Assembly: GCA_016290385.1 (NCBI GenBank)
Contig: JAEETO010000003.1
Coordinates: 1-64,000, forward strand
Direction of reading: 5' to 3'
DNA: 64,000 nucleotides
Source of the DNA: Bacteroidales bacterium
Lineage (GTDB): Bacteria > Bacteroidota > Bacteroidia > Bacteroidales > UBA932
Made by a program: the position numbers and the translations under genes. Shown here one piece after another: positions 23,504-38,466 of this stretch (position 1 is its first letter; every line of letters begins with the position of its first letter). The notes below the pieces were generated by a model. That model had not been told where the DNA came from. It did no database searches and saw nothing but the letters and a program-made list of their open reading frames with translations.

Positions 23504-23607
23504 GTTTATTCTGGTATTATTCGTTTCTTTCCGTTTGATTGTGGAAAGTTACGAATATTTTCCGGCTCTGCCAAGCCGCTCTTCCCTCAAAGTGTGACAC
23601 GAAAAAA

Positions 23608-23629
23608 GGCCACCTGTTTCCAGATGGCC
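23608..23629 (-). terminator. Intrinsic terminator downstream of the 46-aa ORF
   Basis: GGCCAcCTG-tttc-CAGaTGGCC stem followed on minus by TTTTTT. Confidence 0.65.
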
Positions 23630-23655
23630 CTATCGGATGGCGGAAGATTGTGGCT

Positions 23656-23796
23656 CTATTCTTCAGTATTCCAGTCCTTCAGAATATAGCCTTTCACCCA
23701 TTTTGGCCCCTCTTTTCGAGGAACTTTCTTTGCTTGATCCTCGCTGATTGTAATGCGGACGGATCTTTCACATACATTGATAACTATCTTATTCAT
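23656..23796 (-). CDS. Small 46-aa ORF, hypothetical
   Basis: Manual translation: MNKIVINVCERSVRITISEDQAKKVPRKEGPKWVKGYILKDWNTEE*. Bounded on both sides by terminator-like hairpins. Confidence 0.5.
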   Translation of the reverse strand: MNKIVINVCERSVRITISEDQAKKVPRKEGPKWVKGYILKDWNTEE

Positions 23797-23862
23797 ACGA
23801 ATTTAAAAATGTGCGAAATGTAAAGACCGTTGATTCAAGTAGCGCATCCGATTTATCAAAAA

Positions 23863-23888
23863 AAGCACCTATCTGGAAATAGGTGCTT
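23863..23888 (-). terminator. Intrinsic terminator-like hairpin
   Basis: Perfect 10-bp stem AAGCACCTAT-ctggaa-ATAGGTGCTT with T7 following on minus. Confidence 0.7.
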
Positions 23889-24038
23889 AAAATAGTTATC
23901 AGTGAGTGTGAAATCTCACATCATTCGTATGATGCTGCGAAGTTACAACGTTTTTTTCAGACTCAAGCCGCAAAAAAGCAATTTATGTAGATTTTCTATT
24001 GCCACACCTGGCGATTCTCTTTTTGTTGCATCACCCCT

Positions 24039-24078
24039 CAGCGACACAGACGGGAAGGATCAACTGTCTGTGTCGCTG
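24039..24078. repeat. Perfect 13-bp inverted repeat (CAGCGACACAGAC...GTCTGTGTCGCTG)
   Basis: Arms 24039-24051 and 24066-24078. Confidence 0.9.
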
Positions 24079-24149
24079 GAGGGAAATGAGCTGATGACGT
24101 TTGTCATCGTAGCGGTTAAGCGGAGCTTGTTGGGGTAGGTCCTGCTACG

Positions 24150-24254
24150 TTTTGGGGTAGGTCGAACGGAATGGTCGGGACCTATCCCTCAAATAAGCTT
24201 CGCAGAGCATCGGGCGGTGTAGGTGTCAACCCATTTGTTCGACCTACCCCAAAA
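24150..24254. repeat. Perfect 18-bp inverted repeat (TTTTGGGGTAGGTCGAAC...GTTCGACCTACCCCAAAA)
   Basis: Arms 24150-24167 and 24237-24254, with 69 nt between them. Confidence 0.92.
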
Positions 24255-24313
24255 TACATCGACACCTATCCCGCCTGAGGGTTCCAAAAAAGAGGTTATC
24301 TCCCGCCAGGGCT

Positions 24314-24340
24314 GCGGCGAGATAAAGAAGGTCTCGCCGC
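24314..24340. repeat. Perfect 9-bp hairpin (GCGGCGAGA...TCTCGCCGC)
   Basis: gcggcgagataaagaaggtctcgccgc. Confidence 0.85.
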
Positions 24341-24499
24341 GCCTCCAGCAAAAGAACCTAGCGGTCGATGAGTACAGTCCCTTCGCCGTAGTGCTTTCAA
24401 CCTAAAACGCTACGGCGTCCCTCCCTAGCGACACAAGCCGCCAGCCCGCCAAAGTGTGACACGCGAAACGCTAAGGAATGCGCAACAACAAATCTTTCC

Positions 24500-24535
24500 G
24501 TGGAACGACCCCATGTAATGAGGGAGTCGTTCCAC
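24500..24535. repeat. Perfect 10-bp inverted repeat (GTGGAACGAC...GTCGTTCCAC)
   Basis: gtggaacgaccccatgtaatgagggagtcgttccac. Confidence 0.85.
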
Positions 24536-24615
24536 CGCCAAAGTGGCCACAGAGCTCAAAACTCAATCTGCGGTGTCACAGTTTGGCGGACAAGGGTAGA
24601 GGGACACGGAACGGA

Positions 24616-37162: not shown

Positions 37163-37174
37163 CGGCCTAAAACC

Positions 37175-37222
37175 AAGTGGATGGATTTGACTGCTTGCCA
37201 ACCACTCTAAAAAAGGCTAAAA
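37175..37222 (+). ncRNA. SAM-II/SAM-V-like riboswitch aptamer in the metK leader
   Basis: AGTGGATGGATTTGACTGCTTGCCAACCACTCTAAAAAAGGCTAAA: P1 AGTGG/CCACT, GATTTnACnGnTTGC loop and A-rich GCTAAA 3' segment typical of the SAM-II H-type pseudoknot. Confidence 0.72.
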
Positions 37223-37224
37223 TT

Positions 37225-38466
<1,242 letters not shown>

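Follow-up and report, generated by a model that had tools for sequence, protein, structure and literature searches.

The spacer of about 1 kb between a TonB-like and a tricorn-like gene of a Bacteroidales bacterium is most probably (probability about 0.8) a mosaic of repeats linked to RAYT-type transposases, together with a separate minus-strand small-gene unit carrying a repressing leader. The window, which is the whole stretch of DNA analyzed, is 64,000 nucleotides long, and all coordinates without another source refer to it. The spacer is composed of several pieces that are unrelated to one another and differ in their relatives. When the region was compared by BLAST with its own assembly (2.36 Mb, 83.5% complete), the stretch at about 24129-24280 matched about a dozen other places, and other stretches matched separately. 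These separate matches indicate pieces with differing relatives. The relatives compared in this study are draft genomes.

Palindromic repeats that are dispersed in uncultured, largely rumen Bacteroidales form a mosaic in the right part (24029-24592). At least two of these repeats, probably three, belong to different RAYT-type transposases of this bacterial group. The AT-rich left part (23602-23990, minus strand) is, judged by sequence, a separate conserved unit with a 46-codon gene. A first-pass annotation had described the region as a single non-coding island and would have given it up if relatives showed no conservation. Conservation was found; the island dissolved into unrelated pieces, and the ORF at 23796-23656 (minus strand) is conserved in relatives. 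The same annotation had proposed a non-autonomous or decayed mobile element. Such elements do make up the right-hand 560 bp, where there are at least four of them, all different, instead of one. The features are as follows.

23581-23601, no strand: solitary left terminal repeat of element B, CCCTCAAAGTGTGACACG, aligning to the same stretch of genome G001 as the B left end at 24443
23604-23631, minus strand: terminator T1 (GGCCATCTGGAAACAGGTGGCC followed by T6), stem kept in relatives with an A-U to G-C exchange
23656-23796, minus strand: 46-codon ORF with stop, MNKIVINVCERSVRITISEDQAKKVPRKEGPKWVKGYILKDWNTEE, intact in four copies from three genomes
23766-23802, minus strand: ORF start region complementary to the leader, with O1 at 23793-23802 (start codon) and O2 at 23766-23791
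23863-23888, minus strand: leader terminator T2 (AAGCACCTATTTCCAGATAGGTGCTT followed by T5), stem kept with a C-G to U-A exchange in copy G052b
23888-23935, minus strand: predicted leader, running from about the transcription start as far as T2; its antisense segments are L1 at 23923-23932 and L2 at 23888-23913
23938-23981, minus strand: promoter-like boxes (TTGC ... TAACTTCG), the most conserved stretch of the unit upstream of the leader in the alignment
24035-24090, no strand: element D, hairpin CAGCGACACAGAC-N14-GTCTGTGTCGCTG
24132-24272, no strand: element A, GGGGTAGGTC boxes at +24132, +24154, -24179, +~24216, -24241 and -~24263
24293-24372, no strand: element C, decayed right half, GGTTATCTCCCGCCAGGGCTGCGGCGAGA...TCTCGCCGC...
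24415-24435, no strand: half copy of the left arm of D, a direct repeat
24443-24592, no strand: element B, with inverted ends of 17-20 bp (TGTCCGCCAA.CTGTGACAC type) and a central hairpin, GTGGAACGACCCC, at 24500-24535

All five hairpins of the first-pass annotation (23863-23888, 24039-24078, 24150-24254, 24314-24340, and 24500-24535) were recovered, the first of them as a terminator-like stem on the minus strand. The region holds 5 terminator-like sites against 1.2 expected, and single-strand folding is far better than in shuffles (z -3.9 for 24128-24280 and z -5.4 for 24438-24596). These many stable hairpins are what would be expected if the whole region were one large structured RNA. However, no Rfam family reached threshold in the region, relaxed thresholds likewise gave nothing credible, and the pieces differ in relatives and distribution. 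One structured RNA is contradicted by the mosaic and is extremely improbable. The RNA proposal stands in part on the left, where a leader RNA is complementary to the start of the small ORF and this is kept through compensatory change. The hairpin at 24381-24417 (CTTCGCCGTAG...CTACGGCG) is without known relatives. Elsewhere in the window, at 37171-37230 (plus strand), a SAM-II riboswitch was found at 52.3 bits, which exceeds the Rfam gathering score.

Element A and its linked RAYT

The unit of element A is the 10-bp box GGGGTAGGTC. The core at 24154-24250 is 97 bp long and is ordered as box (+), 15 nt, box (-), 27 nt, box (+), 15 nt, box (-). Extra boxes follow outward of the core in 22-bp steps and face the core. 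In its own genome, nine A cores with perfect outer boxes were found in nine contigs, each exactly 97 bp, and a reversed control pattern gave none. GGGRTAGGTC boxes were counted 51 times, against 11 for the control. The cores lie outside predicted genes, and their neighbouring genes are unrelated. At least about 30 further cores of 93-98 bp were found in Bacteroidales MAGs, mostly ruminant, in a scan of one genome per species. The search pattern fixed the outer boxes and left the inner boxes free; the inner boxes are nearly invariant although the search did not constrain them, and the filler is variable. Pattern matches in Halomonas/Vreelandella, Nocardioides, an acidimicrobial MAG and the MAG L081 look unrelated to A and were set aside.

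A structured RNA with a conserved long hairpin was also considered for element A. It was dropped because covariation in the filler stem was not above shuffles (pairing 58.9% versus 58.6% in shuffled letters); the filler pairs no better than column composition predicts, which likewise counts against a structured RNA across the region. In A, only the boxes and their spacing are conserved, and the long hairpin is without support.

In three MAGs, an A core and the 3' end of a similar gene of ~880 aa are 8 bp apart (L088 1273-1368, L102 5114-5209, and L109 152-247). The boxes of these three cores are identical while their filler is partly diverged, which suggests an old insertion with the boxes kept conserved. 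At L106 7147-7300, the A boxes continue past the core as a tandem array (GACCTACCCCGAAGG...).

A profile was built from five A-adjacent RAYTs, and relatives were found in 40 of 149 genomes. All five RAYTs scoring above 500 bits have A boxes at the same spacing alongside, mostly just upstream. They come from five genomes and two genera: this genome, G003, G015, G042, and G096, the last belonging to another genus of the family. Beside the 25 lower-scoring RAYTs no A array was present, and two of these 25 had a single imperfect box. The A arrays are ~20-300 bp from the RAYT gene in all six sampled members of the clade. A tree of 46 RAYTs places the six A-linked sequences together in a single clade (support 100/99). 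A-type spacing with any motif was not found in the sister RAYT clades. In G008, an A array lies next to a RAYT of another, D-like clade (L150 9657-10736, minus strand, boxes 148-256 bp off); this array may be a chance neighbour or may reflect a switched specificity. The RAYT gene of the A clade in the own assembly is cut by the end of contig C35, and another fragment ends contig C82.

The A-linked RAYT gave 14.2 bits or no match against Pfam Y1_Tnp, for which the cut-off is 23. The residues H68, H70, and Y128, that is, the HUH motif and one catalytic tyrosine, are invariant in 38 RAYTs. An AlphaFold model made from 38 sequences had a mean pLDDT of 90.4. When the model was searched with Foldseek, the sole PDB match below E 0.001 was 4er8 (E 2.6e-4, TM for the target 0.65), namely E. 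coli TnpA-REP in complex with a REP hairpin, and ISDra2 and IS608 TnpA came next. A sequence-only profile search of the PDB with this RAYT gave no match; a wider profile search gave weak matches only, with 4er8 leading. The model places the A-linked RAYT-type enzyme closest to E. coli TnpA-REP in fold, though Pfam misses it. RAYT (REP-associated HUH tyrosine transposase) enzymes are single-tyrosine endonucleases and kin of the IS200 transposases; they recognise REP-type repeats, which are short palindromes, in the form of single-stranded hairpins and spread them through the genome.

The repeats could instead be binding sites of a host DNA-binding protein, such as a nucleoid organiser or a regulator, with the proximity to RAYTs being incidental. 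Boxes at fixed spacing, outer boxes phased by 22 bp and variable filler are the expectation for a protein-binding array, and the filler of A is free of covariation. However, the A boxes track one RAYT clade over five genomes and two genera (5/5 versus 0/25), and in the same genomes other RAYTs are flanked by palindromes that are their own and unrelated to A, which makes the host-protein explanation quite unlikely. The protein-binding locus of the first-pass annotation fits the A boxes if these are read as putative transposase recognition sites, as the RAYT-linked reading does.

Element A agrees with REPINs, which are known (PMC3116915), in having inverted copies of a short motif at a fixed distance, dispersed between genes. 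A canonical REP has an unpaired GT[AG]G foot 5' of a short-loop hairpin. The GTAG of the A box sits inside a complementary, paired box, and 15 nt separate the paired boxes. Element A is not a canonical REP because its GTAG is no unpaired foot.

Elements B, C, and D and the direct repeat

The filler of element B has unconserved letters and a fixed length. Two more B copies with the same inner distance of 142 bp were found on contig C101 of the own assembly, and the B hairpin occurs in only 3 of 61 genomes. Inverted copies of CCGCCAAA.TGTGACAC, which the first-pass annotation had placed around 24447 and 24575, are present at 24446-24462 (plus) and 24573-24589 (minus); with up to two mismatches, the window contains 3 such copies against 0.03 expected. 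In G001, B-type elements lie on both sides of a RAYT gene, and in G004 one B adjoins the orthologous RAYT. These two B-linked RAYTs are 71% identical. Ten other RAYTs that belong to the same larger clade lack the B motif.

The B-linked RAYT of G004 is located between an OmpA-like gene and a second gene. On contig C101 of the own assembly, the counterparts of these two neighbours have only a solo B between them. No orthologue of the B-linked RAYT was found in the own, 83.5%-complete assembly; the nearest RAYT, on contig C152, is 50% identical. At the hydrophobic position of the HUH motif, the B-linked RAYTs read HPH and the D-linked RAYT reads HHH (L141 6244-7152, minus; L142 1686-2768, plus; L273 10533-11492, minus).

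Element D is dispersed in at least six relatives. In G049, D hairpins lie on both sides of a RAYT, named RAYT_D, as they do at the corresponding locus of G052, and the RAYT_D clade is distinct from those of A and B. D hairpins are also present in the tricorn/TonB spacer of G004, G042, and G048. At L155, L156, and L157 (G048, G004, and G042), the TonB-like gene beside the tricorn gene has an orientation opposite to that in the window and in G001.

Intact copies of element C (GGGTTATC...GATAACCC) were found seven times or so in G007 and once each in G015 and G016. A partial similarity of 69 bp to C was seen on contig C154 of the own assembly, upstream of a RAYT, and is only suggestive of a link. 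Element C is palindromic and dispersed like A, B, and D, but a RAYT belonging to it was not found.

The own genome has about eleven RAYT-type genes or fragments. The upstream and downstream flanks were alike above the 99% cross-pair threshold at 31 of 61 RAYT loci, and identical hairpin stems were present on both sides at 7 of 62 loci against 1 of 3782 cross pairs. These counts indicate that RAYTs here commonly carry a private flanking palindrome. Three RAYTs of ~306 aa form a separate clade (L130, L119, and L131, on own contigs C29, C101, and C62), and those on C29 and C101 have hairpins with their own stem sequence on both sides.

The repeats are dispersed, have a fixed architecture and are adjacent to particular RAYT clades, and the RAYT fold and conserved catalytic residues were seen as well. 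From these sequence features, the cutting, copying, and recognition of A, B, and D by RAYTs are most likely. Each RAYT most likely nicks and rejoins the hairpin-forming element that belongs to it, which would seed solo copies in intergenic DNA, and this spacer would be a landing site used several times by different RAYT systems.

The 14-bp direct repeat reported at 23588-23601 and 24450-24463 is present and extends to a 35-nt repeat, 77% alike; by its sequence, it is the terminal repeat of B. In G001, the tricorn/TonB spacer is 252 bp long and has a single B without the other ~860 bp. Both copies of the direct repeat in the window align to the left end of this single B. Either the ~860 bp entered beside a B end, or G001 may have lost ~860 bp between the repeats. 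A simple insertion of the 860 bp was the first reading, and it was made uncertain by the conserved gene order in G049 and G052. The empty site in G001 and the bracketing repeats are as expected of a MITE or an insertion sequence comprising the whole 860-bp stretch, and a deletion in G001 would look alike. Because the unit is conserved in G049 and G052, G001 may rather have lost at least this part.

The stretch at 23602-24449 has also been weighed as one composite mobile element inserted in the B left end, with the direct repeat of ~30 bp as its target duplication. The single B of G001 without the ~860 bp and the direct repeats of 30-35 bp that bracket the stretch are consistent with such an element. 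However, G049 and G052 keep the small unit in this gene order but have no A, B, or C near it, which indicates that the unit predates the mosaic or moved separately. A deletion between the direct repeats in G001 would leave the same pattern, and the two repeat copies are only 77% alike. One composite element is unlikely.

Taken as a mosaic, one spacer can gather elements of several RAYT systems. This group of uncultured Bacteroidales has many diverged RAYTs; one genome holds several of them, Pfam misses most, and each is commonly accompanied by a palindrome of its own. How RAYTs recognise their repeats and spread them could be studied in the natural set that these diverged RAYT/element pairs provide.

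The small-gene unit on the minus strand

The small unit was found in 3 of 61 genomes, in four copies, and has a GC content of 39% against 58% for the window. G049 and G052 match it at 74-78% over ~385 bp, and G052 has two tandem copies. In both genomes, the order of TonB-like gene, unit, and tricorn gene is that of the window, and the RAYT_D gene lies between the unit and the tricorn gene. The alignment gives the following layout: a conserved promoter-like stretch, a variable leader of ~80 nt, terminator T2, a conserved GATGCGCTACTT, the ORF, and terminator T1. The boxes at 23938-23981 (minus strand) are presumably promoter-like and of Bacteroidota type.

The ORF protein of the other copies is 57-65% identical to that of the window, with a pN/pS of about 0.5, and the 46-aa peptide is charged. 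The protein was not found in viral contigs or in phage or plasmid collections; a weak match was found in G004.

Every copy shows complementarity between the leader and the ORF start codon, and this complementarity survives sequence change, with only three distinct leader types among the copies. Cognate duplexes of leader and ORF start were calculated as -30.4, -30.1, -34.4, and -30.2 kcal/mol, against -13 to -22 for non-cognate pairs. L2 pairs with codons 2-11 (cognate -30.2, -21.0, and -24.0; others -7.9 to -16.8). L1 pairs with the start codon by 9-14 perfect pairs (shuffles, p 0.003 or less), and in G052b the L1-O1 pair has wholly different letters on both sides. By their positions in the sequence, L1-O1 and L2-O2 cross; the two pairings could coexist only as a pseudoknot and would otherwise be alternatives.

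Transcription of the unit would start near 23935, and the leader would usually end at T2. The leader, in cis or as a released RNA of ~80 nt, would hold translation of the ORF down. It most likely represses the ORF because its two segments complement the start codon and the first codons. Transcription and repression are likely as described, going by sequence. The unit could possibly have a new kind of self-antisense leader, in which transcription from one promoter stops early and the resulting short RNA pairs with the ORF downstream at its start codon. Its tandem paralogues would then be matched leader-ORF sets that pair poorly with each other, like orthogonal RNA-regulated, possibly toxin-antitoxin-like modules. 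This classification is tentative.

The main rival for the small unit is an inverted repeat whose arms recombination keeps alike, through template switching or an invertible segment that would flip T2; the complementarity would then be no RNA regulator. The 26-bp arms enclose a one-directional terminator, and such arms can correct each other. However, two complementary pairs are conserved in swapped order, one of them over the start codon, which a single invertible repeat does not predict. The recombining repeat is a doubtful explanation, and repression by the leader is preferred. Bench experiments can address this small gene and its co-varying, self-complementary leader directly.

Comparison with known systems

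In type I toxin-antitoxin (TA) loci, a small RNA is complementary to the start of a small ORF; in type III loci, an RNA, a terminator, and an ORF are expressed from one promoter. With type I, the unit shares an RNA complementary to the translation start of a small ORF. The antitoxin RNA of type I has its own promoter, whereas the leader and ORF of the unit are on one strand behind one promoter-like site; the peptide is also charged and not hydrophobic, and it is not known to be toxic. With type III, the unit shares the RNA, terminator, and ORF behind one promoter, but it is without tandem RNA repeats. The tandem paralogues of G052, with their matched RNA-ORF pairs, are a further likeness to TA loci.

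The E. coli REP/TnpA-REP system and REPINs (PMC3116915, PMC8266576, 4er8) are, like A, dispersed intergenic palindromes tied to a single-tyrosine HUH gene. The elements of REPINs are in inverted pairs, as in A, and TnpA-REP is the best structural match of the A enzyme. In contrast to E. coli REP, where an unpaired foot precedes a short-loop hairpin, the A box has its GTAG inside a paired stem, the core has four boxes plus outer boxes phased by 22 bp, and there are only about ten copies per genome. Unlike E. coli TnpA-REP, the A enzyme falls below the Pfam cut-off.

RAYTs with non-canonical flanking repeats are known in outline in Bacteroidetes (PMC6006769, subclasses 2.4 and 2.6; PMC3733652, TIRtrons). 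The elements of TnpA-REP subclass 2.4 of Bacteroidetes are of the "double foot" kind: GT[AG]G stands at one end, and the opposite end carries its complement (PMC6006769), a layout like that of A. Compared with subclasses 2.4 and 2.6, the enzymes here are mostly too diverged for PF01797. TIRYT genes, or TIRtrons, are RAYT-like genes with long terminal inverted repeats, some of which are self-complementary and dispersed (PMC3733652). Element B is similar to these but differs by its central hairpin, its filler of fixed length, and ends that do not match the GGGGWSAS motif. The BrickBuilt MITE of Porphyromonas gingivalis (PMC4596501) is likewise a short inverted-repeat element of Bacteroidales that holds a tandem repeat, whereas the 22-bp units of A are outside the palindromic core.

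No description of the A architecture, with its fixed 97-bp core and outer boxes phased by 22 bp, was found in the literature consulted. As far as this literature shows, this architecture, the Pfam-invisible enzymes tied to A, the stacking of repeats from several systems in one spacer, and the small unit are new in comparison with these systems.
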